Below the pieces are notes generated by a model that was not told the origin of the DNA, ran no database searches, and worked only from the letters and a program-made list of their open reading frames with translations. A stretch of DNA of 64,000 nucleotides from Natronobacterium texcoconense (GTDB lineage Archaea; Halobacteriota; Halobacteria; Halobacteriales; Natrialbaceae), in the NCBI RefSeq assembly GCF_900104065.1, contig NZ_FNLC01000002.1, positions 850,995 to 914,994 on the forward strand, written 5' to 3'. Numbering within the stretch: position 1 is the first letter of the stretch; each line of letters starts with the position of its first letter. This document shows, one piece after another, positions 32,146 to 49,196 of this stretch. Made by a program: the position numbers and the translations under genes.

Positions 32146-32153
32146 TTAGTTAG
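32146..32153 (-). repeat. TTAG x2 at the stop codon of S-layer gene 1
   Basis: Two TTAG units (TAACTAA-type on the coding strand) include the stop codon. The homologous place in the paralogs holds 3, 2 and 4 copies. Confidence 0.8.
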
Positions 32154-35100
32154 TCCTGTCGCCGCAGCGCCAGCATCGCGGTTGCGAGCAAGGCGACGAC
32201 AGCGACAGCGACTTCGAAGCCGGGCGTTCCGTCTTCGTCGTCGTCATCGTCCACCGGTTCCGGGTCGGACTCCTCTTTTTCTTCTTTTTCGCCGACGGTC
32301 AGGATGCCGCTTCTGGTGTCGAAACCGGCAATGACGACCCAGTCGACGTCGCCTTCAGTCGACGTGTCGAAGTCGAAGCTCTCGCTCCAGGTATCACCGG
32401 TCTCGAGGACGACAGTCGTGTCTTCGACGTCCTCGTCGTCGATCGTGACCGTCACGTCGACGTCGTCGGCGGCACTGTCGTCGTTGCTGACGGTCACGTC
32501 GAGGGTGGCAGCCTCGCCTGGTTCGACGTCGTCGGGTGCGGTTGCCTCGAGGTCGATCGGAGAGCTGGGAACACCAACGAGGACGGCGTCGACGTCGTCC
32601 TCGAGCAGAGCGTGGTCATCGCCGTCGAATGGAGCCCGGTCGTCGTGATACGCCTCCAGTTCGAAGGCAATGCCGGGCTCGTACTCGCTGAAGTCGTACT
32701 CGACGGTGAAGGTGCCGTCGTCGGCGACGACGGCGCTCGCCGAGTCGGTGAAGTTACCGGGCGACTCGGCGGTAGATTCGACGGCGCTGCCGGGCGCGAC
32801 GTTGGTCGTCCCGATCACGTCGGCGTCCGCAGCGTTCGGGATTTCGTCGTTGGTGGGATAGAGGTCGAACTCGGGGTCGACGATTTCGAACTCGGTCTCG
32901 ATCTCGATCGTCTCCTCGGCGTCGGCGGCAAAGATACTCTCCTCGGTGGCTTCGAACGTGAGATCGTAACTCCCGACGTCGAGGTCGGCACCATCGTAGT
33001 CGACGTGAGCGACGAGGTCGCCGTCGTACTGTGCGAGATCGGTAACCGTCGCGTTCGCGTCGAGACGATCCTCGGCACCGGGGTAAGTGGACCAGGTGGT
33101 CGCGGCGACGTTCGGACCGGGATCTCGCTCCTCGACAGTGATATTCATCCCCGAGGTGGTGAGCATCTCGCCGATGCCGTCGCCGTAGTCGTGGGCGGAG
33201 ACGTCACCGGACATCCCGTAGTCTTCGAGAATCAACACGAGTTCGTCGCCGTGAGCGACCGTCGAACTGGCCGTGCGCTCGGCGTCGTCGTAGTCCTCGT
33301 AGTCGCCGAAATCGGTGCCCGCCGGTGCAATCTCGAAGTCTACGCCCGAGACCGGTTCGGGCTCCTGGACGGTGAAAAACGCCGTGTCGGTCTCTTCGTC
33401 TGTCTCGACGCGCTCCAGGGCAGCCGAATCGTTGTAGTCGGTCCCGGCGACCATCTCGTAGTCGTGAGCACCGAGGACGACGTCGTCTCGGTCGCTGAAG
33501 GCAGCGTCCGTGAACGTGTCGTCAGTCAGTTCGCCACCGGACGTCTCGGGAATCCGCCAGGCGTCGCCGCTGGCATTTGCCGCACTCGTGTCGAACTGGA
33601 GCGTAACCTCGTCGACGTCGTGGCTGTCGACGGTAAACTCGGCAGCAGCCCGGAAGTTGTCCTCCTCGTAGTCGCCAATGTGGACAGCACCAGCCTGTGT
33701 GTGCTCGAGTTCGATCGGGATCTCGATCACATCCCCGCGTTGGCCTTCGGCGTCGCCAGCAAAGTCGACGGACGCGTCGTCGTCGACGACTTCGATCGTG
33801 GCGTTGTCCCACGCGTGAGAGTCCGTGGTGTCGAACTCGAACTCGTACTCGCCGGGTTCGACGTCGTCGAAGCTCACGTCGAACGTCGACGTATCGTCGC
33901 TGGCGTCGACGTGCTCGAGCGTCAGGACGTCGTCCGTGTGGGCGTCGGCATCGCCGGCGTACGCGTTCTCGTCGTGGCCGACGAACATCCCGTAGAGGTC
34001 GTCACCGTCGAACTCCTCGCTGGTGACGTTTACGTGCTGGTGGTCGCGGTCGGAGTCGATCGAGAGTTCCGCTTCACCACCTTCGATAACGGTGTTGGTC
34101 GTGAAGTCGACGTCGAGGTCTTCCTCGTCGGTCCAGAACTCCACCTGGTCGAAACTATCGGCGATGTTCGGGCTGTCCCCCGTATCGAAGTGGTACACCT
34201 CACCGGGTTCCAGATCGGACGTGTCGAACGTTGCCGTGCCATCGTCCCGAACCCGAATCGCCGTTTCGACGTCGCCGAACTCCGCGTTCCGAGGTCCGGG
34301 ACGAACCACGAGACTGCTGTGATCGTCGAGGACGCCACCGGTGAGCGTGACCTCCTGTCCGCTCCAGACCGTGTCGACGTCGTCCGGCTCCCAAGTCGGC
34401 CCCGCCTCGTGGTATTCGTGACCGACACTGCCGGGATCGACGACCGGAATGATACCCCGTATATCCAGCACGAGATCGGCGTTCGCCCCGTCTCCGTAGG
34501 CATCAATATCGACGATCTCACCCGGTTCGTCGACGGTGCTGAACGTCAGGGGTTCGTCCCAGTCGTCCCACTCGTCGTCGACGACGATTCCGTCCTGCTC
34601 GTAATGCTCGCTGGTTTCGGCACCGTCACCACCGATATCGACGCCGAGATCGAGTTCCACCTCACCGTCTCGGAGGTGATTGACCGCCAGGTCGAACTCG
34701 GCATCGTCTCGATCAGCTTCGAACTCCAGCGAAGCAGGGTCGAAGACGACGTCCGCGGCGTACATGGCGTATTCGGAGTCCGCTACACCGTCGTCTTCTT
34801 CAGCATCGTGGACGTGCCTGTCGTATTCGGAGGCCACCACGACGTCGTCCTCGCCAGCCACCTGAACGTCGACCTCGTGTGCGATGTCACCCGCCTCGAC
34901 GGGCTCGAACTCGAGTTCGGCCGGCTCTTCGTCCTCGAGATCACCCTCGTCCGAGGCAGTCCACGCCTGGCCCTCGTCGAGCTCGAGTTCGCCACCCGCG
35001 AAGGTCTCTTCGAAAGTGACGCCCGGATCGACTGCACCCGTATCACCGTCTGCGACGTAGACGTCGATTCGCTCTATCGTGACGTCGTCCTCGGTTGCAA

Positions 35101-35320
35101 CGACGGTAACGTCGAAGTCGTCGACGGTTTCTCCAATCGCGAGGTAGCCGTACTCGTTAGTTACTTCGGGATAGTCAATCGTAATCTCGACCGGTTCCTC
35201 CCCCTCGTCTGCCGCCGCGGACCCCGCAAACAGAGCGGACATCGCGACGACAGAGACGATCATGATCGCTGCCAGGAACGCTGCACGTCCCTTTTCGCGA
35301 CGTGATAGTTCGCCTGTCAT
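32150..35320 (-). CDS. S-layer/surface glycoprotein paralog 1, PGF-CTERM
   Basis: 1056-residue secreted, very acidic glycoprotein. The signal peptide (RREKGRAAFLAAIMIVSVVA, then MSALFAGSAAA) is the haloarchaeal surface-glycoprotein type. Ig-like beta domains follow, an acidic linker (DPEPVDDDDDEDG), and a PGF-CTERM tail (GTPGFEVAVAVVALLATAML, then ALRRQD) for archaeosortase processing and lipid anchoring. Sequons shared with the paralogs: VNVTSEEF, WDNATIEV, MNITVEE, GNFTDSA; others of its own include SAANASGD and DYNDSA. It has the longest N-terminal region of the four and is the most divergent, with Glu-Val instead of Gly-Val after PGF. Own promoter and leader. Confidence 0.9.
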   Translation of the reverse strand: MTGELSRREKGRAAFLAAIMIVSVVAMSALFAGSAAADEGEEPVEITIDYPEVTNEYGYLAIGETVDDFDVTVVATEDDVTIERIDVYVADGDTGAVDPGVTFEETFAGGELELDEGQAWTASDEGDLEDEEPAELEFEPVEAGDIAHEVDVQVAGEDDVVVASEYDRHVHDAEEDDGVADSEYAMYAADVVFDPASLEFEADRDDAEFDLAVNHLRDGEVELDLGVDIGGDGAETSEHYEQDGIVVDDEWDDWDEPLTFSTVDEPGEIVDIDAYGDGANADLVLDIRGIIPVVDPGSVGHEYHEAGPTWEPDDVDTVWSGQEVTLTGGVLDDHSSLVVRPGPRNAEFGDVETAIRVRDDGTATFDTSDLEPGEVYHFDTGDSPNIADSFDQVEFWTDEEDLDVDFTTNTVIEGGEAELSIDSDRDHQHVNVTSEEFDGDDLYGMFVGHDENAYAGDADAHTDDVLTLEHVDASDDTSTFDVSFDDVEPGEYEFEFDTTDSHAWDNATIEVVDDDASVDFAGDAEGQRGDVIEIPIELEHTQAGAVHIGDYEEDNFRAAAEFTVDSHDVDEVTLQFDTSAANASGDAWRIPETSGGELTDDTFTDAAFSDRDDVVLGAHDYEMVAGTDYNDSAALERVETDEETDTAFFTVQEPEPVSGVDFEIAPAGTDFGDYEDYDDAERTASSTVAHGDELVLILEDYGMSGDVSAHDYGDGIGEMLTTSGMNITVEERDPGPNVAATTWSTYPGAEDRLDANATVTDLAQYDGDLVAHVDYDGADLDVGSYDLTFEATEESIFAADAEETIEIETEFEIVDPEFDLYPTNDEIPNAADADVIGTTNVAPGSAVESTAESPGNFTDSASAVVADDGTFTVEYDFSEYEPGIAFELEAYHDDRAPFDGDDHALLEDDVDAVLVGVPSSPIDLEATAPDDVEPGEAATLDVTVSNDDSAADDVDVTVTIDDEDVEDTTVVLETGDTWSESFDFDTSTEGDVDWVVIAGFDTRSGILTVGEKEEKEESDPEPVDDDDDEDGTPGFEVAVAVVALLATAMLALRRQD

Positions 35321-35531
35321 GTACTGTGATTCGGTCGCGTCGGTTGGCCTGCGGTCGATGCCTCAGAAAACGGTGAGTTTGCCCCGTTCACGTGCGTCGC
35401 TCGACAGCACGGCCTCCCGAATAGCGGTGTCTCTATCAAGTCATCTATATGTAATAAATTTTCTCGCCAGTGGCTAGAACCAGACGCTACCGACACGAGA
35501 TAACACGACGTAGAGCAATCTGTCGAAACGA

Positions 35532-35553
35532 CCTCGAGCGCGGTAGCTCGAGG
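35532..35553 (-). terminator. Perfect 8-bp hairpin, possible terminator after S-layer gene 2
   Basis: CCTCGAGC and GCTCGAGG flank a 6-base loop, ~215 bp past the gene 2 stop. CTCGAG is a frequent word in this genome, so the function is uncertain. Confidence 0.35.
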
Positions 35554-35743
35554 GTGTTCCCGGTTTCTTCAGCCACGTCGTAGCACTCTCTGTGCCGTTG
35601 AAACGAAATCTCGAAAATACGCGTCTATACTCACTCTGTCGTCCTACGAGAGTACTGATTCGACGGCTACCAGCTACTCGGACGAGAGTGCTGCAGCTAC
35701 GGGGTGTAACGTGCGTCGAAAGAAAAGCGAAATGCGGCGGAAA

Positions 35744-35760
35744 CTGAACGCGGTGTTCAG
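35744..35760 (-). terminator. Conserved hairpin right after the S-layer gene 2 stop
   Basis: CTGAAC-GCGGT-GTTCAG (17 bp) lies just beyond the TTAG repeats. On the coding strand a pyrimidine-rich stretch (TTTCGCTTTTCTTTC) follows it. The same hairpin and tract recur after genes 3 and 4, so it probably sets the 3' end. Confidence 0.55.
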
Positions 35761-35772
35761 TTAGTTAGTTAG
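35761..35772 (-). repeat. TTAG x3 across the stop codon of S-layer gene 2
   Basis: Three TTAG units give TAACTAACTAA on the coding strand, with stop codons in all three frames. The annotated stop is the first unit reached. Confidence 0.85.
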
Positions 35773-38501
35773 TCCTGTCGGCGCAGCGCCAGCATCGCGG
35801 CTGCGAGCAGGGCGACGACAGCGACAGCGACTCCGAAGCCGGGCGTTCCGTCTTCGTCGTCGTCATCGTCATCGTCGTCGTCCGTGGTGTCGTCGTCATC
35901 GTCGTCGACGACTTCCTCTTCTTCAGCGACGGTCAGGGTGCCGCTGTCGGAGTTGTCTCCGGCAGTGACGTCCCAGTTGATGTCGCCTTCCTCGGCGGTG
36001 TCGAAGTCGAAGCTCTCGCTCCACTCCTCACCAGCGTCGAGGGTGACCGTGGTGTCCTCGACGTCCTCACCGTCGATCGTAACGGTGATGTCGACGTCGT
36101 CACCGGAGCCACCGTCGTTGCTGACGGTCACGTCGAGCGCGGCAGCGTCGCCAGGCTCGACTTCACCGGGTGCGTCAGCGTTGAGGTTGATCAGCGGGTC
36201 CTCAGCGTCAACGAGGACGGCGTCCATGTCGTCCTGAGCGTCGCCGCGCGTGGTGTAGGCATTTTCGTCGGCTTCAGCGTCCAGTTCGAACGGCGTGCCG
36301 GCCTCGTACTCGCTGAAGTCGTAGACGGCCGTGAAGGTACCGTCGTTCTGGACGACAGCGTCTGCGGCGGCGGTGAAGTTACCGGGCGAGTTCGCACCGG
36401 TGTCGACGTCGTTACCGGGTGCGATGTTGGTCATGCCGGTCACTTCAGCCGAGTCGCTGTTGGGGATCTCGGCGTTGTTCGGGTGGAGATCGAGTTCGGG
36501 CTCCTCGAGTTCGAAGCTCGTCTCGAACTCGATCGTGTCATCGGCATCGTCGACGAAGATGCTGTTTTCGTTCGCCTCGAAGATGAGCTCGTACTCACCG
36601 TACTCGAGGTCGGTGGCATCGTAATCGATAACGAGCACGAGGTCTCCGTCGTACTCGTTGAAGTCGCTAATCACGGTGGACGTCACGAGTTGACCGTCGT
36701 AATCGTCGAGGGTCCCATAATCGTCGTGGGTCGTCCAGACCTGCGGTGCGACGTTCGGACCGGGGTCCTGTTCCTCGAGCGTGATGTTCATACCGGCGTG
36801 CTCGAAGACGTCGTGGGCATCGCTGGCCCCGTCGACGGCACCGGACATGCCGAAGTCCTCGAGCGTCAGGATGAGTTCGTCTCCATCGGCGACGATGTCA
36901 CCGGACGAGAGGAGGTCGTCCTCCTGCGCCTCGGCCAGGTCGTCGGCGTTGTTGAAGTTAGTGTCGGCCGGCGCTCGCTCGAGCACGACGTCCGAGATCG
37001 TCTCGGGTTCGGTCACGGAGAGGAACGTCGTGTCAGTTTCCGAGTCTTCCGCGACGGCGTTGGCTCCGTCGTCGTGCTCGGTACCGGCGGTCATCTCGTA
37101 GTCGTAGACACCGAGCACGAGGTTGTCTTCAGCTTCTGGGTCGTCGACCCAGCCGACGTCAGCCTGGTCGTCTACCAGCGTAAGGTCGTACTCGTCTTCG
37201 TACTCTTCAGGAACGTTCCATGGGTCCGCTGGATCGTTCGTGTCGAACAGGATCACGATCTCGTCTGCGTTCGGCGTATCGAGACTGAATCCAGTAGATG
37301 CCTGATAGTTCTCCTCGTCGATATCGCCGACCTGAATCGCACCCTCTTCGGTGTGTTCGGGCTCGAGGACGATTTCGATCATGTCACCGCGCTCGCCAAC
37401 GGGGTCTTCGGCGAAGTTGACAGCGGTGTCTTCGTCGGTGACTTCGATCGTCGCGTTGTCCCACGCGAGCGAGTCAGTGGTTTCGAACTCGAACTCGTAG
37501 ACACCCGGGTCGACGTCTTCGAACTCGATTTCGAACTCGGCACCGTCTGCAACGTCCGTAAGCGTCAGGATTTCGTTATCGCTGTCGACCAGCTGGTCCG
37601 TTCCAGTCTCGCCGTAGTCGATGTAGTCATCGAGGTCGCCAGCGTCGAAGTCCTCGCTGGTGATGTTGAGGTGCTGGTAGTCGCGGTCGCTGTTGACTTC
37701 GATCTCAGTGCCGTCGTCCTGTGGGACGGTGTTGACACTGAAGTCGACGTCGAGTTCTTCCTCAGCGGTCCAGAACTCCTCACCGTCGAAGTGGGAGCCA
37801 TCAGCGTCGAAGTGGTACGCTTCGCCCGTTTCGAGGTCGGACGTGTCGAACACGGCAGTCCCGTCAGTTGCTTCGATCGACGTCTCGTGGTCGGGGTTGT
37901 CGAGCGACTCGGGGCCTTCGTAGAGAATGACGGCACTCACGGTGTCGCCAAAGGCAGCGTCCTCGAGCGTGATTTCCTGCCCGATGTAGACGGTACTGAC
38001 GTCATTTTCGTCTTCCCAGGTTGGGCCATCGTCACTGTAGAGGTGGCCGACTCCGGATTCTTCCTCGCCGGATTCAGGCTCTTCGACGGTGACAGTCTGT
38101 ACACCCGACTCCCAGGTGCTGCCTTCACCGTCGTCAAGGGCGACCGACCACTCGATCGTGTCGCTGTCAGTCATTCCGGAGGCGTCGAACTCGACGTTCC
38201 ACGTCTCGGAGTCTTCGTGGTCAATCGTCACCGATTCATCGACCGAAGTAGCTCCGTCGACAGTGATCGTGACGTCAACTTCGTCTGCAGGGTCTACTTC
38301 CTCGTTCGATACCGTAATCGTACGGTCCTCAGTTGCGTCTTCATCGATGGTATCGTCATCGATGTCAACGGAGTAGTTACTCTGATCGTATGCCACCGCA
38401 CTGCCCGCGAACGCTGCGGACATCGCGACGACAGAGACGATCATAATCGCTGCCAGGAACACTGCACGTCCCTTTTCGCGATATGATGGTTCGTTTTGCA
38501 T
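35769..38501 (-). CDS. S-layer/surface glycoprotein paralog 2, PGF-CTERM
   Basis: 910 residues from the ATG at 38501 (MQNEPSYREKGRAVFLAAIM), which aligns with the starts of the paralogs; an upstream in-frame extension is not conserved. The signal peptide ends near ...AGSAVA. The N-terminal ~110-residue Ig-like domain (DIDDDTIDEDATEDRTITVS) is not shared by paralog 4. The common core begins YSDDGPTWEDENDVSTVYIG. Sequons: NYSVD, LNITSEDF, WDNATIEV, MNITLEE, GNFTAAA. An Asp-rich linker and the tail GTPGFGVAVAVVALLAAAML ending ALRRQD follow. It would be exported, N-glycosylated by AglB and anchored through PGF-CTERM processing. Confidence 0.91.
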   Translation of the reverse strand: MQNEPSYREKGRAVFLAAIMIVSVVAMSAAFAGSAVAYDQSNYSVDIDDDTIDEDATEDRTITVSNEEVDPADEVDVTITVDGATSVDESVTIDHEDSETWNVEFDASGMTDSDTIEWSVALDDGEGSTWESGVQTVTVEEPESGEEESGVGHLYSDDGPTWEDENDVSTVYIGQEITLEDAAFGDTVSAVILYEGPESLDNPDHETSIEATDGTAVFDTSDLETGEAYHFDADGSHFDGEEFWTAEEELDVDFSVNTVPQDDGTEIEVNSDRDYQHLNITSEDFDAGDLDDYIDYGETGTDQLVDSDNEILTLTDVADGAEFEIEFEDVDPGVYEFEFETTDSLAWDNATIEVTDEDTAVNFAEDPVGERGDMIEIVLEPEHTEEGAIQVGDIDEENYQASTGFSLDTPNADEIVILFDTNDPADPWNVPEEYEDEYDLTLVDDQADVGWVDDPEAEDNLVLGVYDYEMTAGTEHDDGANAVAEDSETDTTFLSVTEPETISDVVLERAPADTNFNNADDLAEAQEDDLLSSGDIVADGDELILTLEDFGMSGAVDGASDAHDVFEHAGMNITLEEQDPGPNVAPQVWTTHDDYGTLDDYDGQLVTSTVISDFNEYDGDLVLVIDYDATDLEYGEYELIFEANENSIFVDDADDTIEFETSFELEEPELDLHPNNAEIPNSDSAEVTGMTNIAPGNDVDTGANSPGNFTAAADAVVQNDGTFTAVYDFSEYEAGTPFELDAEADENAYTTRGDAQDDMDAVLVDAEDPLINLNADAPGEVEPGDAAALDVTVSNDGGSGDDVDITVTIDGEDVEDTTVTLDAGEEWSESFDFDTAEEGDINWDVTAGDNSDSGTLTVAEEEEVVDDDDDDTTDDDDDDDDDEDGTPGFGVAVAVVALLAAAMLALRRQD

Positions 38502-38601
38502 GTATATTGTCTCGTAATTTCGTCTTCGTTGGTTGGTCTGGATTCGATTCATCGGGAGGCGGCCATTATCGGCGTTTACGACGTGTCTCACCGACCAGCT
38601 C

Positions 38602-38654
38602 GGCCTTCCGGGTAGGGGTACTGTGAGAGATGAAAGTAATGAGTAATAAGCTTT
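38602..38654 (-). promoter_or_regulatory. Conserved promoter and leader block of S-layer gene 2
   Basis: AAAGCTTATTA (TATA-like) is followed ~25-40 bp later by ACCCCTACCCGGAAGGCC. Both elements recur at the same distances upstream of S-layer genes 3 and 4. Confidence 0.6.
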
Positions 38655-38979
38655 CCGTTTAACAGGTCAGAATTTGTGGTTGTTCTAATGGCATATTACT
38701 GGATTATAGTGGCCTATTACCTTGATAGAGAATAGACATAATAGTCTAACGGTTGTTTGGGGTGGCTGGAGACAGTCAAGAACTATTCTCGAGAGGACTC
38801 GATCAAAAGAGTTCACACCAACGGTGTTCGACGGCCGATACCGATCGTCGACCATCTACGCCCGCTTCTCGGTTCGGTTCGTACGGCCGAGCACGGCCAT
38901 CCGGATACCGGTCACCAAAATCAGTGCTGCAGCTACGGGGTGTAACGTGCGTCGAAAGAAAAGCGAAATGCGGCGGAAA

Positions 38980-38996
38980 CTGAACGCAGTGTTCAG
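38980..38996 (-). terminator. Conserved hairpin after the S-layer gene 3 stop
   Basis: CTGAAC-GCAGT-GTTCAG, same position and pyrimidine-rich downstream tract as after genes 2 and 4, with one loop-base change. Confidence 0.55.
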
Positions 38997-39000
38997 TCAG

Positions 39001-39008
39001 TTAGTTAG
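39001..39008 (-). repeat. TTAG x2 (plus degenerate TCAG) at the stop of S-layer gene 3
   Basis: Two exact TTAG units adjoin one TCAG unit; the second TTAG contains the stop codon. Confidence 0.8.
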
Positions 39009-41902
39009 TCCTGTCGGCGCAGCGCCAGCATCGCGGCTGCGAGCAGGGCGACGACGGCGACAGCGACTCCGAAGCCGGGCGTTCCGTCTTCGTCGTCGTC
39101 AGTTTCGTCGTCGTCAGTTTCGTCGTCGTCATCGTCGACGACTTCCTCTTCTTCGGCGACGGTCAGGGTGCCGCTGTCGGAGTTGTCTCCGGCAGTGACG
39201 TCCCAGTTGATGTCGCCTTCCTCGGCGGTGTCGAAGTCGAAGCTCTCGCTCCAGGTGTCTCCGTCAGCGTCGAGGGTGACGGTCGTGTCCTCTTCGTCCT
39301 CACCGTCGATCGTGACGGTGATGTCGACGTCGTCGGACGCGCCGCCGTCGTTGCTAACGGTCACGTCGAGCGCGGCAGCGTCGCCAGGCTCGACTTCACC
39401 GGGTGCGTCAGCGTTGAGACTGATCAGCGGGTCGCCAGCGTCGACAAGGATGGAGTCCATGTCGTCGCCGTTGTCGCCTTCGTGGTCGTCGTAGGCGTTT
39501 TCGTCGGTTTCAGCTTCGATTTCGAACGGCGTGCCAGCGTCGTACTCGCTGAAGTCGTAGACAGCCGTGAAGGTGCCGTCATCCTGGACGACAGCGTCTG
39601 CGGCGTCCGTGAAGTTACCAGGCGAGTTCGCGTCGGTGTCGATGTCGTTACCGGGCGCGACGTTGGTGATGCCAGTCACTTCGGCACTATCGGAGTTTGG
39701 CACTTCATCGTTCTCGGGGAGCAGGTCAACTTCAGGCTCCTCGAGCTCGAAGTTCGTTTCGAATTCGATGGCGTCCTCGTCGTCGTCGACGAAGATGCTG
39801 TCGTCAGTTGCCTCGAAGGTGAGATCGTATTCACCGTAGTCGAGACCGCTGGTTTCGCTGCTGCGGTCGCCGGGCATGTCGTAGTCGTCGTAATCGATCA
39901 CGAGCACGAGGTCGTCATCGTATTCCTCGATGTCGCTGATGACGTTGGACAGTTCGATGCCCTCGACGTCACCTTCGTCTGCGCTGGCTTCGTAATCGTC
40001 GAGGTTTTCAACGCCCTCGTAGGTCGTCCACCATGCTGCGTCCTGGTTCGGACCAGGGTCTTCTTCTTCGATGGTGATGTTAATGCCGGCGGTGTCCTCG
40101 AAGACATCTTCGCTGTCGGCGGAGCCTTCGATGAGACCGGACATGCCGAAGTCTTCGAGGGTCAGGACGAGTTCGTCACCGTAGGCGGCTTCCGTACCGT
40201 CCGTCAGGAGGTCGTCCTCGTAGGCTTCCTCGAGGTCCTCGGCGTCGTCGAAGCCGGTGTCGTGCGGCGCACGTTCGAGCACCATGTCCGAGATCGTTTC
40301 GGGCTCGGTCACGGAGAGGAACGTGGTGTCGGTTTCGTGTTCGCTGTCGACGGCACCAACGTACCCATCAGGGGTATCGTCAGCATCTTCTTCGTACTCG
40401 GTGCCGGCGGTCATCTCGTAGTCGTAGATACCGAGGACGTAGTTATCGTCGTCCTCTTCCCAGCCGACGAAGGTGTCGTCTTCGGGGTCGTTCTCGATTG
40501 TGAGGTCGTACTCGTCTTGGTACTCCTCAGGTTTGGTCCACGGGTCGTGTGGATCGTTCGTGTCGAACAGGAGTCCGATTTCGTCGGCGTCAGGGGTGTC
40601 GATGTCGAACTCGACGGTCGACTGGTAGTTCTCTTCGTCGTAGTCACCAACCTGAACCACACCTGTTTCGGTGTGGTCGGGTTCGATCACGATCTCGACC
40701 ATGTCACCCTGCTGGCCGATCGGGTCCTCACCGAAGTGGACAGCGGTGTCCTCGTCGGTGACTTCGATCGTGGCGTTGTCCCATGCGAGCGAGTCGGTGC
40801 TCTCGAATTCGAATTCGTAGACGTCAGGTTCGACGTCTTCGAATTCGAGTTCGAGTGCGTCACCATCGTCGACACCCTCGAGCGTCAGGGCGTCGTCATC
40901 GTAGGCCTCAACGTTGGTGAAGTCACCTTCGTCGATGACGTACTCTTCGAGATCGTCACCATCGAAGTCTTCGCTGGTGACGTTGACGAACATGTCGTCA
41001 CGGTCGGTCGCGAACTCGATGTCGGCGTCGTCATCCTGTGGGACGGTGTTGACGCCGAAGTCAACAGCGAGGTCTTCCTCGGCAGTCCAGAACTCATCGC
41101 CGTGGAAGTCGTACGTGTCTTCGTCCTCGTCTACGTGGAAGTGGTACGCTTCGCCTGGCTCGAGTTCGTCAGTTTCGAACGTACCGTATGGGTGGGGATG
41201 GTCATCATCTTCCTGAATTTCGATCGATGCTTCGTGGGTGCGGTCGTCTCCAGAGAGGCTTGCCGGCCCTTCGTAGAGGATGACAGCACTCACGTCATCA
41301 TTGTCAGGTCCTTCGTCATCTGCGAACTCTTCGGACATGATGGTGATTTCCTGTCCGATGTACGCGTTGTCGCCAGCTTCATCGATCCAGACCGGTCCAG
41401 CATCGTCGTATGCCTGCTCTTCGTCGAATGCGTCAGGGTCTTCGACGGTGACAGTTTCGGAGTCAGTGTCGAAGTCAGACCCATCGTCACCGGCGGTTTC
41501 CCAAAGTTCGACGTCGATGTTGACGTCACCTGGAGAGTCCTCGTCGATGACGTCAGTGTAGGTGATCGAGTCGTCACCTTCCGCAGCGAGGGCGACTTCT
41601 GCCGCGCCAGAGCCGTCGTACTCTACTCCGTCGTCTGCCTCGACGGTTTCACCGCCGATCTCGATATGCGCGTAGACATCGTGCGCGGCGTCTTCAGTGT
41701 TATCGATTTCTACCGTAACAGTACCTTGGTCATCGACATCAACCGTCGCCGGCGCGTCGATATCGTCAATTACAACGTTTCCGTCTGGCGTCGCTGCCGC
41801 GCTGCCCGCAAATGCTGCGGACATCGCAACGACAGAGACGATCATAATCGCTGCCAGGAACACTGCACGTCCCTTTTCGCGATATGAAGGTTCGCTTGTC
41901 AT
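39005..41902 (-). CDS. S-layer/surface glycoprotein paralog 3, PGF-CTERM
   Basis: 965 residues. The signal (MTSEPSYREKGRAVFLAAIM, ending AGSAAA) is nearly identical to those of paralogs 2 and 4. Its N-terminal module (DIDAPATVDVDDQGTVTVEI) differs from that of paralog 2. The common core starts YDDAGPVWIDEAGDNAYIGQ. Sequons: FVNVTSEDF, WDNATIEV, GINITIEE, GNFTDAA. The acidic linker is DDDDDETDDDETDDDEDG and the PGF-CTERM tail matches paralogs 2 and 4 exactly. The last ~170 residues (LISLNADAPGEVEPGDAAAL) are almost the same as in paralog 2, pointing to recent duplication or gene conversion. Confidence 0.91.
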   Translation of the reverse strand: MTSEPSYREKGRAVFLAAIMIVSVVAMSAAFAGSAAATPDGNVVIDDIDAPATVDVDDQGTVTVEIDNTEDAAHDVYAHIEIGGETVEADDGVEYDGSGAAEVALAAEGDDSITYTDVIDEDSPGDVNIDVELWETAGDDGSDFDTDSETVTVEDPDAFDEEQAYDDAGPVWIDEAGDNAYIGQEITIMSEEFADDEGPDNDDVSAVILYEGPASLSGDDRTHEASIEIQEDDDHPHPYGTFETDELEPGEAYHFHVDEDEDTYDFHGDEFWTAEEDLAVDFGVNTVPQDDDADIEFATDRDDMFVNVTSEDFDGDDLEEYVIDEGDFTNVEAYDDDALTLEGVDDGDALELEFEDVEPDVYEFEFESTDSLAWDNATIEVTDEDTAVHFGEDPIGQQGDMVEIVIEPDHTETGVVQVGDYDEENYQSTVEFDIDTPDADEIGLLFDTNDPHDPWTKPEEYQDEYDLTIENDPEDDTFVGWEEDDDNYVLGIYDYEMTAGTEYEEDADDTPDGYVGAVDSEHETDTTFLSVTEPETISDMVLERAPHDTGFDDAEDLEEAYEDDLLTDGTEAAYGDELVLTLEDFGMSGLIEGSADSEDVFEDTAGINITIEEEDPGPNQDAAWWTTYEGVENLDDYEASADEGDVEGIELSNVISDIEEYDDDLVLVIDYDDYDMPGDRSSETSGLDYGEYDLTFEATDDSIFVDDDEDAIEFETNFELEEPEVDLLPENDEVPNSDSAEVTGITNVAPGNDIDTDANSPGNFTDAADAVVQDDGTFTAVYDFSEYDAGTPFEIEAETDENAYDDHEGDNGDDMDSILVDAGDPLISLNADAPGEVEPGDAAALDVTVSNDGGASDDVDITVTIDGEDEEDTTVTLDADGDTWSESFDFDTAEEGDINWDVTAGDNSDSGTLTVAEEEEVVDDDDDETDDDETDDDEDGTPGFGVAVAVVALLAAAMLALRRQD

Positions 41903-42009
41903 GTGTTGTGTATGTGTTGTGTTTTCGTTCGCTTAGGTTGGTTATCGCGCGATCAGATCGGAAGCGACCGTTATCGGCACGACCTGCACATCGTCGCGTC
42001 CCGACACAG

Positions 42010-42060
42010 CCTTCCGGGTAGGGGTGTTCGATGCAAGATACTACCCCGTAATAAGCTTTC
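42010..42060 (-). promoter_or_regulatory. Conserved promoter and leader block of S-layer gene 3
   Basis: Minus-strand AAAGCTTATTA (42050-42060) is followed by ACCCCTACCCGGAAGGC (42010-42026). The TATA-to-ATG distance is ~150 bp, implying a leader of roughly 120 nt. Upstream, CTGACCTATCAG forms a short inverted repeat. Confidence 0.6.
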
Positions 42061-42331
42061 TGTCTGATAGGTCAGAGAAAAGGACGGTTTCAATGTACGT
42101 TTTCTCTCGCGTAATTAGTCGTTACGAGCCTCTATGAGACATAGTACGCCGAATATAGACTGAAAACAGATACGTCAGAACCGTAGCGGTTTTTGGTATC
42201 ACGCCACAAACAAATAGCAGTGCTATCGGTCTCGAACTCGAGTTCTCAGAACACAACGATCGATTACGACAACCGGTGCCGTCGCTACCGGGGACAACGA
42301 GCGTCGAAAGAAAAGCGAAATGCGGCGGAAA

Positions 42332-42348
42332 CTGAACGCGGTGTTCAG
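42332..42348 (-). terminator. Conserved hairpin after the S-layer gene 4 stop
   Basis: CTGAAC-GCGGT-GTTCAG, identical to the hairpin after gene 2, just beyond the TTAG repeats and followed by a pyrimidine-rich tract. Confidence 0.55.
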
Positions 42349-42364
42349 TTAGTTAGTTAGTTAG
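42349..42364 (-). repeat. TTAG x4 across the stop codon of S-layer gene 4
   Basis: Four exact TTAG units; the last one on the plus strand (42361-42364) contains the stop codon, and the rest place stops in all frames. Confidence 0.85.
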
Positions 42365-44763
42365 TCCTGTCGGCGCAGCGCCAGCATCGCGGCTGCGAGC
42401 AGGGCGACGACAGCGACAGCGACACCGAAGCCGGGCGTTCCGTCTTCGTCACCGTCATCGTCGTCGTCATCGTCTTCCGGTTCCGGTTCCGGTTCCGGCT
42501 CTTCCTCTTCTTCGGCGACGGTCAGGGTACCGCTGTCGGATTCGTCTCCGGCAGTGACGTCCCAGTCGATGTCGCCTTCCTCGGCGGTGTCGAAGTCGAA
42601 GCTCTCGCTCCAGGTGTCACCGGCGTCGAGGGTGATCGTCTCGTCCGTGAGCTCCTCACCGTCGAGCGTGACGACGACATCGACGTCGTCGGCAGCACCG
42701 CCGTCGTTGCTGACGGTCACGTCGAGCGCAGCGTCCTCACCGGGCTCGACTTCATCAGGTGCGTCAGCGTTGAGGTTGATCAGCGGGTCCTCGGCATCGA
42801 CGAGAACGGAACTCATGTCGTCCTCGAGGTCACCTGCGAACTCACCGAACTCCGAACTGTCGTCGTGCTCGGCCTCGAGGTCGAACTCGATACCAGCTTC
42901 GTAGTCGCTGAAGTCGTAGACGGCCGTGAAGGTACGGTCGTCGTCGACGACTGCGTCAGCACCGTCGGTGAAGTTACCAGCGGAGGACGCACCCGTGCTG
43001 ATATCGCTACCAGGCGCGACGGTAGTCGTACCGATCACTTCAGCCTCGTCGCTGTTCGGAATCTCATCGTTGTCGGGGTGGAGGTCGAGTTCGGGTTCGA
43101 CGACTTCGAAGCTAGATTCGATTTCGATCTCTTCGTCCTCGTCGTCCGCGAACATGCTGTCCTCGCTGATCTCGAGCGTCAGGTCGTAGCCACCGACGTC
43201 GAACTCGTCGGCCTCGGTGTAGTCGAGGGTCGCGACGAGGTCGCCGTCGTAGTACTCGAGGTCGGTGTAGACGGCGCTCACGTCGATCGCCTCGTCACCC
43301 TCGGCTGCAGTCGACCAGACCTTCGGATCGACGTTCGGACCAGGGTCTTGCTCTTCGACGGTGATCTCCATACCCGCTTCTTCGAGCATCTCGCCGACGT
43401 CGTCGGTGGTCATGCCGTCGACGGCACCGGAGAGACCGAAGTCCTCGATGGTGACCACGAGCTCGTCGTGGTAGGCGACTTCGGACGAAGACGTCATGTA
43501 CGCCTCGTCGTACTCGTCGTAGTCGCCGAGGTCGGTCCCGGCCGGAGCGATCTCGAAGTCGACGTTACTGACCGGTTCCGGTTCGAAGACGCTGAAGAAC
43601 GACGTGTCGGTCTCGGAGTCTTCCTCGACACCTGCGTGCGTTTCAGCGTCGCCTTCGTCGTACGACGTACCGGCGATAATCTCGTAGTCGTGGACGCCAA
43701 GCGGCTCACCCTCTTCGAAGTTGATGGCCGTGTAGCCCTCGAGGATCTCGGCGTCGTATTCGTCTGCGTCGTCGGGGTGGACGGACCAGGAGTCCTCGCC
43801 GTCGTTCGGCGCGTACGTGTCGAACCGCAGCGTGATCTCGTCTGCGCTGTAGTCGTCGACGTCGAAGTGGGCGGCAGCCTGGAAGTTGTCCTCGTCGAAG
43901 TCACCAATCTGGACGGCACCGGTCTGGACGTGCTCGAGGTCGAGCGTGATGTCGATCACGTCACCGCGCTCGCCACCGATGTCGTCGGCGAAGTCGACGG
44001 ATGCGTCGTCGTCGACAACCTCGATCGTGGCGTTGTCCCACGCGAGCGAGTCAGTCGTCTCGAACTCGAACTCGTAGTCACCGGGTTCGATGTCGTCGAA
44101 GTCAACCTCGATGTCTTCGCCCGCCGAGACGTTCTCGAGCGTCAGGACGTCGTCAGTGTAGTCGTTCTGCCACTCGTCCGTGTAGTTGAACAGATCGTCG
44201 AGTTCGCCACCGTCGAACTCCTCACTGGTGACGTTGAGGTGCTGGACGTCGCGCTCGGAGTCGAACTCCAGGTCGACGGTGTCGTCCTGAGTGACGGTGT
44301 TGACCTCGAACTCGACGTCGAGTTCTTCTTCAGCCGTCCAGAACTCCTTCTCGTCGAACTCCGAGTCGCCAGCGACGAAGTGGTACGCTTCGCCCGGCTC
44401 GAGGTCGGCAGTTTCGAACTCGCCCCAGTGTCGGTCCTCTTCCTGATCGTGGTGGATCTGGATCGAGGCTGCTCGCTCCGGATCGTCGAGCGAGGCGGGG
44501 CCTTCGTACAGGATGACGGAGCTTTCACTGGCGAGGCTCTCGTCTTCGATCGTGATTTCCTGGCCGATGTAGACGGTCTCGACGTCACCGTCCGTCCACG
44601 TTGGGCCAGCAGCGTCGTATGCTTGGTCGAGCGTTTCTCCTTCGGGGTCCTCTGCCACCGCGGTGCCCGCAAACGCTGCGGACATCGCGAAGACAGAGAC
44701 GATCATGATCGCTGCAAGGAACACTGCACGTCCCTTTTCGCGATATGATGGGTCGCTTGTCAT
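42361..44763 (-). CDS. S-layer/surface glycoprotein paralog 4, PGF-CTERM (shortest)
   Basis: 800 residues. The signal is MTSDPSYREKGRAVFLAAIM ending AGTAVA. It lacks the variable N-terminal Ig-like module: the conserved core (YDAAGPTWTDGDVETVYIGQ) begins about 20 residues after cleavage. Sequons: LNVTSEEF, FNYTDEW, LENVSAG, WDNATIEV, AGNFTDGA. The site that is MNIT in paralogs 1 and 2 and INIT in paralog 3 is MEIT here, so that sequon is lost. The linker is EPEPEPEPEDDDDDDDGDEDG, then the standard GTPGFGVAVAVVALLAAAML tail. It is the first of the array in transcription order and lies nearest aglB. Confidence 0.91.
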   Translation of the reverse strand: MTSDPSYREKGRAVFLAAIMIVSVFAMSAAFAGTAVAEDPEGETLDQAYDAAGPTWTDGDVETVYIGQEITIEDESLASESSVILYEGPASLDDPERAASIQIHHDQEEDRHWGEFETADLEPGEAYHFVAGDSEFDEKEFWTAEEELDVEFEVNTVTQDDTVDLEFDSERDVQHLNVTSEEFDGGELDDLFNYTDEWQNDYTDDVLTLENVSAGEDIEVDFDDIEPGDYEFEFETTDSLAWDNATIEVVDDDASVDFADDIGGERGDVIDITLDLEHVQTGAVQIGDFDEDNFQAAAHFDVDDYSADEITLRFDTYAPNDGEDSWSVHPDDADEYDAEILEGYTAINFEEGEPLGVHDYEIIAGTSYDEGDAETHAGVEEDSETDTSFFSVFEPEPVSNVDFEIAPAGTDLGDYDEYDEAYMTSSSEVAYHDELVVTIEDFGLSGAVDGMTTDDVGEMLEEAGMEITVEEQDPGPNVDPKVWSTAAEGDEAIDVSAVYTDLEYYDGDLVATLDYTEADEFDVGGYDLTLEISEDSMFADDEDEEIEIESSFEVVEPELDLHPDNDEIPNSDEAEVIGTTTVAPGSDISTGASSAGNFTDGADAVVDDDRTFTAVYDFSDYEAGIEFDLEAEHDDSSEFGEFAGDLEDDMSSVLVDAEDPLINLNADAPDEVEPGEDAALDVTVSNDGGAADDVDVVVTLDGEELTDETITLDAGDTWSESFDFDTAEEGDIDWDVTAGDESDSGTLTVAEEEEEPEPEPEPEDDDDDDDGDEDGTPGFGVAVAVVALLAAAMLALRRQD

Positions 44764-44858: not shown

Positions 44859-44910
44859 GGCCTTTCGGGCAGGGGTGTTCGGAGAATATAATCATCCCAT
44901 AATAAGCTTT
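44859..44910 (-). promoter_or_regulatory. Conserved promoter and leader block of S-layer gene 4
   Basis: AAAGCTTATTA (minus strand, ~44900-44910) and ACCCCTGCCCGAAAGGCC (44859-44876), spaced as in genes 2 and 3; TATA-to-ATG distance ~140 bp. The sequence GACCGTTATCGGCACG, also found in the gene 3 leader, lies nearer the ATG. Confidence 0.6.
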
Positions 44911-45096
44911 CTGTTCAGAAGGTGCTTCTGAGAGTCTAATTAATAGTATATTGTTCGAAATATCCTCTATGGAGTCCTGTAATCCAGAATACTATATTGA
45001 AAGTGAATGGCCAAAATATATAAATGAAATAACCTTCTTGAAAAGGCAATCATTGGATGCTACCGCTTCGAAAGCTCAGGGCCCTCCAAGCTGAAA

Positions 45097-45309: not shown

Positions 45310-48081
45310 TCAGTTTTCGCCGTCGAGCTCTCCGAAGTCGACTTCGAGCGTCTCACCTTCGACAACTGCCGTCTCGGGGACCTCCTGCTGTGTCTCGTAC
45401 GTTTCGCCTGCCGACTCGACGACGATCTCGTAGTCGTCGATCGTCTCGACGGCACTGTCGGTGTAGCCGTCCTCGACGCCGAGTTCGTCGTTGGTCGCGT
45501 ACGGCACCGTCAGTTCGAAGCTGCCGTCGGCCTCGAGTTCGACTTCCTGCTCGTAGACCGCGTCTTCGGTCTCGTCGCGGTCGACGCCGGTATCGAGTTC
45601 GGCAGTGGCGGTGACCGTCGCGTCGTCGGTAACGTTCGGATCGTCGATCGATCCAGTTAGCGTCGCGCCTTCGACGCGCTCGTAGGTCTTCACCTCGGAG
45701 CCGATCCGGTCGTCGAAGATCTCGTAGTCGAGTTGCGGATGCCGGTCGTAGAAGTTGAAACTCGACTGTGCCTGTGCGAAGTCCTGGTTGAGGACCACCT
45801 GCGGGGTGCCGTCGTCGACCAGAACGTTGCCGGTCTCCGCGTTGACGATCGCGTAACTGACGAACAACGTCTGGTCGTCGCTCTCGTGGACGAGCCGGTA
45901 GTTCTCCATGCCCGACGCGTCGTCGAAGTACAGCTGTGCGACGGTCGTGTTGTAGTACGGCATACCGTCGAGTTGCTGTGGGACCTCGTCACGCGGAATC
46001 TGGTCTGTCGGCTCGAAGTCCGGCGGCGTGGTGTAGTGGTCCGGTCCGGGATCGGTCCACGTGGCGATCGCATTGAATTTGCCACCGACCATCGAATCGT
46101 CGACCATCACGTACCGGATCTCCTCGCCGGAGTCGCCGTCACCGATCATCGCCTCGAGTTCCTCGTTGGACTCGTTACTCGGCGATTCGCCTTCGGCGAT
46201 CGCGTCGAGGATCAGTTCGGACCGTTCTTCGTCCTCGGCGGTCAGGAACGCCGAGGACGACGTCGCTCCGGACTGGAACGGGTTCGAGTGTGGAATCCGT
46301 TCGGCCTGGGTCGTGATCAGGTGGCCGTAGTCCCACCAGGAGATGACGCCGTAGGTACCTTCGGGATAGTCATAGTTCCCGTCCTCGGGATGGTCGTAGG
46401 TGCCGTAGAGCTCGAGCTCGTCGGCGTACTCCGCGTCACCCCAGTTACCGGGTTCGGGGGTATTCTCCTGGAGCCAGTTGTTCGAGTCTTCCCAGGACAT
46501 GGCCTCGTGATGGGGCTCTGCCGCCGCGCCACGGTCCATCGCAGTTGCACCCGAGGCAGCGACCGGCGGCAGGAGTGGTGCGAACAACAACAGGACGACC
46601 ATTACCAGGACGATAATCTGGTACGTTTCGACCTGCCGCAGGGAGTCGATGCCGCCACTGACGTCGAAGTCGAAGTCAAAGAATCGAACGACATCCGCGA
46701 CGAAGACCGCGTTGACGACCGCCACACCCAGCGCGAGATAGTACGCAAACCGGATCTGGGTCGCCGCCATACTCACCAGGAACAGCGACCAAACGATGAT
46801 GAGCGTATGCTCGGTGCGATACTCACGTCCGAAGAAGGGACGGGCAACGAGCAGGGCGAGGCCGGCCAGCATCGTGTAGAAGGTCGCACCGAACTCCTGG
46901 AAGACGTGTGCGCCGAAGTTATCCGGTGGCTGGGCCTCCGAAATAGTCTGTGCACCAGTCCCTGGATCGAGCGGGAGCAGTCGACTCGTGAGATTCCCGA
47001 CGAACGTACTGTAGAAGTCGGGAAGGACGACTGCCATGGCAGCGAACGCGCCGAGGATCAGCGCGCCGATCGCTGCAGGGTAGTATCGACGATCGACGTC
47101 GTACGTATTCCACTGGCGCGCGAACCAGGCCATGAACACACAGCCGGTTGCGACGAGGGCCGCACTGACGGGCTGCAGATAGCCGAAACTCGTCACGCTG
47201 GTTCCTGGCTCCTCGATGAGAAGCGCCGTGATGAGGGCCGTCACGCCGAGACTCACGGCTCCGACGTACGCGACGTGGTCCGGCGACACGTTCCGGACGT
47301 AGTCGAGACAGAGCTGGACGGTAAAGAACACTGCAAGGATACCGATCAGGACGATACCGGGCGGCCAGACCCAGATGTAGAGAGCGAGGGAAACCCCGGC
47401 GAGAACGCTGTAGATCGTTGGCTCCCGGAGCGTCTCCCAGTCGCGGTCGACCACGAGTTCGTAGATCGGCTGGTCACGTTCGGCGACGCGAAGCGCGACC
47501 ATCATCGCGAGCACGGCGATCGCCATGAACAGAACTTCGGCGACGTGGTGTTGCAGCTGACCTGCCGTCGTCCGCGTGAGGAACTGTCCAGGCACGAGCG
47601 CGAGGATAACGACCGAAACGATTCCGCCGATCGTCCCGCCGAGCCGCCGTCCGATGTAGAAGACGGGGATCGCGACGAGGGCAGCCATCGCCGGGACAGC
47701 GAACAGCGAGACCATATACAGCGTCTCGGTCGACGGATCGCCGAGACCGACGATCATCGCGACCGTCACGATGATCTGGTCGAACAGGGTCCCGAACTGG
47801 CCGACGTATCGGCCCGTCGGGAAACTCGTCCAGACCTCGTAGGGCATCGTGTACGGGTAGTTTTCGGCGGTCCACTGGACAGTACGCCAGTGGTACCACG
47901 AGTCGACTCCAGCTAGAGCGGGCGTTCCATCCTCGGTAACGAACCTGTCGTACGACTGGGTTCGCACCCAGAACATAAACAGCATCACGGCCCCGATAAC
48001 GGGGATGTGATACCAGTCTTCCCACGTCTCGAGGAAGGACGTCTCCGTGTCCTCCTCGACGCGTTCGGTCTCGGTACTCAT
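45310..48081 (-). CDS. aglB: Dolichyl-phosphooligosaccharide protein glycotransferase AglB
   Basis: 923 residues. This is the archaeal STT3-type oligosaccharyltransferase, which moves the lipid-linked glycan to Asn-X-Ser/Thr on exported proteins at the outer face of the membrane. The N-terminal ~530 residues hold about 13 helices, with the first acidic loop motif VDSWYHWRTVQWTAENYP (catalytic divalent-metal Asp). The hallmark WWDYGH is at 582-587, followed by a soluble extracellular domain of ~340 residues. The start ATG at 48081 lies 27 bp from a TATA box, implying a leaderless transcript. It sits between four S-layer genes and the rest of the agl locus. Confidence 0.96.
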   Translation of the reverse strand: MSTETERVEEDTETSFLETWEDWYHIPVIGAVMLFMFWVRTQSYDRFVTEDGTPALAGVDSWYHWRTVQWTAENYPYTMPYEVWTSFPTGRYVGQFGTLFDQIIVTVAMIVGLGDPSTETLYMVSLFAVPAMAALVAIPVFYIGRRLGGTIGGIVSVVILALVPGQFLTRTTAGQLQHHVAEVLFMAIAVLAMMVALRVAERDQPIYELVVDRDWETLREPTIYSVLAGVSLALYIWVWPPGIVLIGILAVFFTVQLCLDYVRNVSPDHVAYVGAVSLGVTALITALLIEEPGTSVTSFGYLQPVSAALVATGCVFMAWFARQWNTYDVDRRYYPAAIGALILGAFAAMAVVLPDFYSTFVGNLTSRLLPLDPGTGAQTISEAQPPDNFGAHVFQEFGATFYTMLAGLALLVARPFFGREYRTEHTLIIVWSLFLVSMAATQIRFAYYLALGVAVVNAVFVADVVRFFDFDFDVSGGIDSLRQVETYQIIVLVMVVLLLFAPLLPPVAASGATAMDRGAAAEPHHEAMSWEDSNNWLQENTPEPGNWGDAEYADELELYGTYDHPEDGNYDYPEGTYGVISWWDYGHLITTQAERIPHSNPFQSGATSSSAFLTAEDEERSELILDAIAEGESPSNESNEELEAMIGDGDSGEEIRYVMVDDSMVGGKFNAIATWTDPGPDHYTTPPDFEPTDQIPRDEVPQQLDGMPYYNTTVAQLYFDDASGMENYRLVHESDDQTLFVSYAIVNAETGNVLVDDGTPQVVLNQDFAQAQSSFNFYDRHPQLDYEIFDDRIGSEVKTYERVEGATLTGSIDDPNVTDDATVTATAELDTGVDRDETEDAVYEQEVELEADGSFELTVPYATNDELGVEDGYTDSAVETIDDYEIVVESAGETYETQQEVPETAVVEGETLEVDFGELDGEN

Positions 48082-48100
48082 CAGGTTGCAACAGACCCAA

Positions 48101-48116
48101 GCCAAGAATAAGCCTT
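48101..48116 (-). promoter_or_regulatory. aglB promoter (TATA)
   Basis: Minus strand AAGGCTTATTCTTGGC centred ~27 bp before the aglB ATG. The distance fits a leaderless transcript. The core AAGGCTTATTC is shared with the divergent aglG promoter. Confidence 0.65.
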
Positions 48117-48236: not shown

Positions 48237-49196
48237 ATGAAGATTTCCGTCGTCGTGTGCACGTACGCGATGGATCGGTACGACGTCTTCTCGGAGTGTG
48301 TCGACAGCGTCCTCGCACAGACCTACGAGTCACTCGAGGTCGTCCTCGTCGTCGACGGCAACGAGGACGTGTTCGAGCGAGTCCAGGACGATTACGGCGA
48401 CCTCGAGGACGTCGTCCTCCACTGCAACGACGAGAACCAGGGTATCTCGTACAGTCGGACTCGAGGTGCCGAGATCGCGACCGGCGACGTCGTGGCGTTC
48501 ATCGACGACGACGCCGTCGCCGAACCGGACTGGGTAGAAGAACTCGCACGAGTGTACGAGGAGACCGACGCGATCGCGGTCGGCGGCCATGTCGCCCCCG
48601 ACTGGGTGACCGAGAAGCCGGACTTCTTTCCCGAGGAGTTCTACTGGCTCGTCGGCTGTGACGAACGCGGCTTCGGCGAGCACATGGAGGAGTTGCGAAA
48701 CACCTACGGCTCGAACATCTCCTACCGGCGCGACGTCTTCCTGAACGTCGGCGGCTACGACGAGAACACGGGTCGCAAGGGCGACCGTCACATCCAGGCT
48801 CACGAGGCACCCGTCTGCATCCGGATCAACAACCAGTACGGCAAGGGCGTGATCTACAACACCGACGCCGTCGTCCATCACAAACTCTTCGACTACAGAG
48901 GCGACTTCCAGTGGCTCGTGAGTCGATCGTTCTGGCAGGGCTACTCGAAGCGGATCATGGACTTGCTGTTACCGGAAGCGTCGGGCGACAAAAACGAATA
49001 TCTGAAACAGTTGTTACTCGAGTTCGTTCCGGATCGACTGTGGAAGCTCCTGCGGCGGCCGTCGGCGGCGAAGGCGAAACAGCTCGTGACGATCTTCGTC
49101 TTCACCGCGGCAGTCGGGTTCGGCTATCTTTACGGGCTGATCAGTGTCGACCAGTCGGAGCTGGTTACCGAACGCGACGCGCCAGTCGAAACCTGA
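48237..49196 (+). CDS. aglG: Glucosyl-dolichyl phosphate glucuronosyltransferase, AglG-like
   Basis: 319-residue GT2-family transferase. GT-A signatures: ISVVVCTYAMDRYDVFSEC at the N-terminus, VLVVDGNEDVFERV, and the metal-binding DVVAFIDDDAVAEPDWVEE. A later NTYGSNISYRRDVFLNVGGYDEN carries the acceptor region. A C-terminal membrane segment (LVTIFVFTAAVGFGYLYGLI) anchors it, as in Haloferax AglG, which adds the second sugar (glucuronate) to the dolichol-linked glycan. The divergent position next to aglB matches the Haloferax aglB-aglG neighbourhood. Sugar specificity is inferred. Confidence 0.87.
   Translation: MKISVVVCTYAMDRYDVFSECVDSVLAQTYESLEVVLVVDGNEDVFERVQDDYGDLEDVVLHCNDENQGISYSRTRGAEIATGDVVAFIDDDAVAEPDWVEELARVYEETDAIAVGGHVAPDWVTEKPDFFPEEFYWLVGCDERGFGEHMEELRNTYGSNISYRRDVFLNVGGYDENTGRKGDRHIQAHEAPVCIRINNQYGKGVIYNTDAVVHHKLFDYRGDFQWLVSRSFWQGYSKRIMDLLLPEASGDKNEYLKQLLLEFVPDRLWKLLRRPSAAKAKQLVTIFVFTAAVGFGYLYGLISVDQSELVTERDAPVET

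Follow-up and report, generated by a model that had tools for sequence, protein, structure and literature searches.

Haloarchaea have the S-layer as their outermost wall, and viruses are known to use it as a receptor. How can such an interlocking coat diversify without lattice incompatibility? The locus described here and its relatives offer a concrete answer: the exposed dome would be swapped as a cassette, the lattice domains would descend vertically, and the anchor would be homogenised. The locus lies in a stretch of 64,000 nucleotides from Natronobacterium texcoconense, hereafter the window. The subject genome is 4.0 Mb in size, on nine contigs. The genus is represented by five genomes; the species haloterrestre is filed by NCBI under Natronobacterium, family Natrialbaceae. 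With one genome compared per species, exchange can be inferred between species; it is not an observation made within one population.

Four tandem genes and their flanks

The array contains four intact open reading frames, S1–S4, which are arranged head to tail on the minus strand between aglB and one conserved 701-codon gene. Ng_A, Ng_B and Ng_C denote the paralogues in the congener genome G001.

29464–31569, plus strand: gene of a 701-residue protein, the conserved opposite flank, 82% DNA identity to the congener
32150–35320, minus strand: S1, S-layer glycoprotein paralogue, 1056 residues, with a 268-residue N-terminal module
35769–38501, minus strand: S2, S-layer glycoprotein paralogue, 910 residues, with a 119-residue CARDB/Ig-like module
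39005–41902, minus strand: S3, S-layer glycoprotein paralogue, 965 residues, with a 129-residue module, positional orthologue of Ng_B
42361–44763, minus strand: S4, S-layer glycoprotein paralogue, 800 residues, without module, positional orthologue of Ng_A (81% amino acid identity)
45310–48105, minus strand: aglB, encoding an archaeosortase A-type oligosaccharyltransferase (TIGR04154, 841 bits), a conserved array flank

The earlier note had described four surface-glycoprotein genes on one strand, and all four were recovered intact with these positions and lengths. Outside the homogenised 3′ ends, dN/dS is 0.2–0.6; S1–S4 are not decaying and are under purifying selection in these parts. Long open reading frames also lie on the plus strand opposite S1–S4 (32612–35305, 36483–38486, 39482–41887 and 42865–44748); they were dismissed as genes and attributed to the Asp/Glu-rich codon composition. 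An Rfam scan of 28–52 kb of the window gave no match. Scans for sigma-70 promoters and terminators were set aside, being uninformative for archaea.

Two further paralogues are located elsewhere in the genome. The fifth gene (S5, L023:2909–5680) is full-length and encodes 923 residues. The sixth (L024:2016–3890, C2:78 kb; 624 residues) is shorter and divergent; it carries one BGTF domain and PGF-CTERM, and has a counterpart in G001 (L027).

The aglB gene is immediately upstream of S4. Beside it is an AglG-type glucuronosyltransferase gene (48237–49196, plus strand; NF041394, 542 bits, above the cut-off), so the array borders an N-glycosylation cluster. S-layer genes are close to aglB only in few genomes (G000, G001, G013 and G014), and the linkage is loose, 17–50 kb, in others; therefore, we did not count the aglB adjacency as part of the system. 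In the congener, one 294-residue open reading frame (L025:4287–5171) is located between aglB and the S4 orthologue; no frame of ∼294 residues is listed at the matching position of the window. The 701-residue flanking protein has no Pfam or NCBIfam match.

Protein architecture and the N-terminal modules

The four proteins were said to share signal peptide type, core and PGF-CTERM tail, and profile searches bore this out. All of them score above cut-off with TIGR04207, the haloarchaeal S-layer signal peptide (42–46 bits, cut-off 24.6), with NF045517 halo_surf_dom (64–68 bits, cut-off 40) and with the PGF-CTERM archaeosortase anchor models TIGR04126 and PF18204. Each carries one acidic linker ahead of PGF-CTERM; Asp and Glu together make up 29–33% of the residues. 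There are 7, 5, 4 and 5 N-X-S/T sequons in S1, S2, S3 and S4, respectively, with aglB nearby. The csg model NF041335 gave 62–111 bits with S1–S4, which missed its equivalog cut-off of 1100 bits; by sequence, the four proteins are related to csg, but they are no equivalogs of that narrow model.

To compare folds, AlphaFold models of S1 and S3 were used, with mean pLDDT of 65 and 69, respectively; the core is good and the modules are poor. In Foldseek, the csg structure 7PTP is the best PDB match of the S1 model (E 2.8e-18) and the second-best PDB match of the S3 model (E 1.0e-15). The matches of both models span ∼850–900 columns and support a chain of Ig-like domains as in csg but, with low TM-scores (0.2–0.3), not the relative placement of the domains. 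The A5 profile, with Haloferax-like relatives, retrieved 7PTP/7PTR from the PDB (E 1.6e-18), the best stretch being the C-terminal linker/anchor; when A2 or S4 was the sole query, PDB sequence searches gave no S-layer match. Taken together, the profile matches, the fold matches to 7PTP and the A5 match place S1–S4, as predicted from sequence and models, in the csg-type S-layer family in the wide sense.

Among the csg domains, D1 has diverged most, and the D1–D2 dome points outwards, on the side opposite the membrane (PMC8640222). The D2/D3 junction is inferred to lie at residue ∼250 of S4 (∼512 of S1), given the model's strand pattern and the conserved YEFEFETTDS..NATIEV block.

44014–44652, minus strand: predicted D1–D2 'dome' equivalent of S4, residues 38–250, from the model, with the orientation taken from PMC8640222

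Between signal peptide and core, S1, S2, S3 and S4 have 268, 119, 129 and 13 non-core residues, respectively.

34406–35209, minus strand: S1 N-terminal module, residues 38–305; no Pfam match, no confident model
38034–38390, minus strand: S2 N-terminal module, residues 38–156; resembles the C-terminal CARDB-type domain
41405–41791, minus strand: S3 N-terminal module, residues 38–166; replaced relative to the orthologue Ng_B

The similarity between the S2 and S3 modules is weak (E = 1.5e-4) and the S1 module resembles neither, which agrees with the earlier description of differing N-terminal regions in S1–S3 and none in S4. The S2 module matches the C-terminal CARDB-type domain (blastp E 2e-7), with a weak match to BIg21. 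No family match and no confident fold was found for the S1 module. The modules were modelled poorly (pLDDT < 50), so an Ig-like nature is shown, by CARDB similarity, for S2 and Ng_C only. The N-terminal module of Ng_C (L026:4462–7590) consists of two near-identical tandem CARDB domains, a pair showing module growth by domain duplication.

Replacement, descent and homogenisation along the genes

Two array genes in G001 lie between flanks that match those of the window, with DNA identities of 84–91% on the aglB side and 82% on the side of the 701-residue gene. The third gene, Ng_C, is at the locus of the fifth paralogue, where the flank is 89% identical over 3.9 kb. In the core tree, S4 pairs with Ng_A (100), S3 with Ng_B (97–100) and the fifth gene with Ng_C (100); S2 stands beside S3/Ng_B. 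This pairing indicates that the paralogues are older than the species split, and that G001 lacks orthologues of S1 and S2. The class is rich in tandem duplicates, and neutral tandem duplication could be invoked for the array, as could an assembly artefact. However, the paralogue cores are mutually only ∼45–70% identical and older than speciation, both flanks are syntenic with the congener, and dN/dS is well below 1; we regard this explanation as hardly credible.

The orthologous pairs do not align over their full length. In blastn, S3 and Ng_B are 81% identical in DNA through S4, the intergenic region, the promoter, the leader and the signal peptide; the alignment breaks off at residue 37 and picks up again at residue 150, with 76.5% identity. 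The two modules do not resemble each other convincingly (E 0.02). The fifth gene and Ng_C are 76% identical through the signal peptide, followed by one gap (residues 37–324), which covers the module and D1–D2, and then by 80% identity. These alignments show that the predicted modules at one locus differ between congeners, and that the block between signal-peptide end and core, as delimited by them, was replaced between positional orthologues; the block comprises the module in S3, and the module and D1–D2 in the fifth gene. By the core tree, D3–D6 stay orthologous, showing a pattern of vertical descent.

Tree tests gave conflicting histories for the gene parts. For D1–D2, the tree joins Ng_C to S2 (100), and this part rejects the C-part topology (AU p = 2.0e-4). 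The N-part tree fits the C part worse by 372 log units and is rejected there. All three gene parts mutually reject each other's trees (AU p ≤ 2.4e-4). The grouping of Ng_C with S2, together with the mutual rejection, indicated that at least one N/C chimera exists. Very fast substitution, instead of replacement, could in principle have made the orthologous modules diverge; it does not account for the grouping of Ng_C with S2 in D1–D2.

The third gene part is the 3′ end.

35687–36100, minus strand: homogenised 3′ end of S2 and 82 nt downstream
38923–39340, minus strand: homogenised 3′ end of S3 and 82 nt downstream
42361–42690, minus strand: homogenised 3′ end of S4, with CARDB-type domain, acidic linker and PGF-CTERM

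Over the last ∼170 residues, the identity between S2 and S3 climbs from ∼76–78% to 92–100% at the amino acid level. The earlier note had called the whole of this stretch almost identical, which was slightly overstated: it is true of the last ∼115 codons, which are 92–96% identical in DNA, but not of the earlier, 76–78% identical part. In the tail, S2 and S3 share one stretch of 98 identical bases, and the DNA similarity continues 82 nt beyond the stop codon (96%). In the tail (the last ∼110 codons), the dS between S4 and Ng_A is 1.13, versus 0.43–0.51 elsewhere; between S3 and S4 it is 0.21, versus 0.76–0.82 elsewhere. The PGF segments of S2–S4 are 98–99% identical in DNA to each other, 94–95% to S1 and 79–86% to the orthologues; that of the unlinked fifth gene reaches only 80–85%. 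The tail rejects the trees of the other two parts, and these parts in turn reject the tail tree. These comparisons show that the 3′ ends were homogenised within the genome, the outcome expected of gene conversion. With orthologues that differ in their modules, one N/C chimera and homogenised 3′ ends, the phylogenetic tests support the earlier proposal of swappable modules and recombination between conserved ends.

Promoters, alternative readings and relatives

Each of the four genes is preceded by its own promoter-like element.

35452–35463, minus strand: BRE/TATA-like element GAAAATTTATTA upstream of S1
38644–38655, minus strand: BRE/TATA-like element GAAAGCTTATTA upstream of S2
42049–42060, minus strand: BRE/TATA-like element upstream of S3
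44900–44911, minus strand: BRE/TATA-like element upstream of S4
38606–38619, minus strand: leader element ACCCCTACCCGGAA of S2
42012–42025, minus strand: leader element of S3
44863–44876, minus strand: leader element ACCCCTGCCCGAAA of S4

The window contains four copies of GAAARYTTATTA, one per gene, ∼130–147 nt upstream of the start codons; none is expected. The leader element sits ∼25 nt after BRE/TATA. It occurs in exactly four copies in the 4.0 Mb, all of them in S-layer leaders (S2, S3, S4 and the fifth gene); S1 has one diverged version. Over the upstream 220 nt, S3 and Ng_B are 88% identical, S4 and Ng_A 76%, and the paralogues 49–62%; judged by these identities, the upstream regions are orthologous and not homogenised.

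Campylobacter fetus sap has one promoter and silent homologues. Like the array, it is an S-layer gene family whose ends are conserved and in which chimeras occur (sapAB chimeras, PMC4943207), and recombination through conserved ends, producing chimeras, was found here as well. Expression-site antigenic variation of this type, with one active locus and the others as silent donors, would also agree with the homogenised ends. Different from sap, however, a BRE/TATA element stands before every gene of the array, which leaves no simple silent-cassette scheme, and the exact leader element is present in three of the four genes. No invertible arrangement is seen, as every gene is complete and all share one strand. 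The four intact predicted promoters argue against a single-expression-site switch and are compatible with regulated or simultaneous expression; we consider the sap-type scheme very improbable.

Promoters of their own would also suit a condition-specific division of labour, in which four fixed coats are regulated separately by salt, pH or growth phase and recombination is incidental. Upstream regions that are conserved between orthologues and differ between paralogues, and paralogues that predate the species split, are consistent with it. A fixed role predicts conserved modules, but congeners have different modules at the same locus despite the conserved promoters, and we find this reading unlikely. 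It is less likely still that S4 is the one dominant S-layer protein, and that the others are minor or accessory surface proteins which merely share the fold. S4 is indeed the best conserved (81% amino acid identity to Ng_A; dN/dS 0.21–0.26 versus 0.41–0.43 for S3), has no module and adjoins aglB; in two congeners, H. haloterrestris and the G003 species, only one match each scores above the family cut-off. However, the lattice core, the anchor and the promoter are intact in all four genes.

Our best explanation, which we hold with moderate confidence, is a tandem repertoire of four complete csg-type genes with their own promoters, recombined in parts. Homologous recombination swaps the outward part as a cassette, from the signal-peptide end to the start of D1 in S3 and to the D2/D3 junction in the fifth gene. 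Such a swap leaves promoter, leader and signal peptide in place on one side and D3–D6 on the other. D3–D6 are inherited vertically, and the 3′ end (the last Ig-like domain, the linker, PGF-CTERM and the start of the 3′ UTR) is kept alike within the genome, as by gene conversion. Lattice packing and archaeosortase processing may constrain D3–D6 and the anchor, whereas D1–D2 and the module would make up the exposed dome, the part in contact with viruses and partner cells, and may diversify under virus (or mating) selection. The array would supply different, lattice-compatible coat proteins, either one in place of another or in combination, and would be a source of new chimeras. Under this explanation, S4, which lacks the module, is best conserved and adjoins aglB, is likeliest to be the basic lattice protein. 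On these comparisons, the array looks like a repertoire for varying the virus-bound surface. An archaeal analogue of antigenic variation, with dome cassettes (signal peptide to D2/D3) exchanged within populations under virus pressure and ends kept compatible by gene conversion, is a more tentative proposal, to which we give a lesser chance. The favoured scheme of repertoire and recombination yields testable predictions on breakpoints, virus host range and mixed lattices.

Earlier work has already described multiple S-layer genes, tandem pairs and S-layer gene recombination (PMC5867893, PMC4535781). Haloferax volcanii csg (7PTP/7PTR; PMC8640222) shares the chain of Ig-like domains, the signal peptide class and the PGF-CTERM anchor with the present proteins. 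It is one single gene of 827 residues with a Thr-rich linker, whereas here there are four to five genes, whose proteins have N-terminal modules, an acidic linker and, ahead of that linker, an additional CARDB-type domain. Haloarcula hispanica has two S-layer proteins in one cell (PMC9943897), csg1 and csg2, whose consecutive accessions (G0HV85/G0HV86; PMC8640222) point to probably adjacent genes; they are two, versus four here, and we found no report of cassette exchange or end-homogenisation for them. Haloferax gibbonsii LR2-5 and Halorubrum lacusprofundi also have more than one S-layer paralogue, one of which is a virus receptor whose loss is tolerated (PMC9973310, PMC10544981). Their two copies, different from the present genes, have distant locus numbers (41% identity in Hrr.), and no array or conversion was described. 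Virus-escape changes map, in the two hosts' own S-layer numbering, to residues 237–246, 209/210 and 45–46 (PMC9973310, PMC10544981). Haloquadratum walsbyi strains differ in the N-terminal extension of the S-layer protein (PMC3119063); in GI1, such strain-specific extensions sit on one conserved C-terminal S-layer core, with recombination and presumed virus evasion (PMC3119063, PMC4535781). There, one gene or island is replaced between strains, whereas the present array is an intragenomic tandem repertoire. Neither a four-gene array nor a three-mode history, in which the dome is replaced, the lattice vertical and the anchor converted, was found described in the open-access literature searched.

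The earlier note took one dominant S-layer protein as the rule among studied haloarchaea, which holds only in part: tandem S-layer-type pairs are common in the class, and several haloarchaea have at least two such proteins (PMC9973310, PMC10544981). In the family, at least 14 of 125 genomes have two or more such genes within 10 kb on one strand; the arrays of the listed genomes contain five genes in G015, four here, three in G043 and G044, and otherwise two. Tandem pairs are also frequent outside the family, with 15 genomes recorded, among them all eight sampled members of one genus (g36).

Several of these arrays also have gene parts that differ in history or divergence. In G043 and G044, with the three-gene array of another genus, the N parts form orthologous pairs. 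Homogenisation within the genome affects the core in two G044 genes and the tails in two G043 genes, and the parts mutually reject their trees (AU p ≤ 0.0043). In G095, the last 200 residues are 99–100% identical in DNA, versus 58% in the N part. In G015, the N parts are 29–35% identical in most pairs and the cores mostly 56–70%; its five-gene tandem array, bigger than that of the window, spans L039:4304–15304 and L040:3–2789 (C2:321–340 kb). Decay inside an array was observed in G038, where one truncated S-layer paralogue (L051:7264–8322, an open reading frame of 352 residues) has a tail identical to that of its full-length neighbour.
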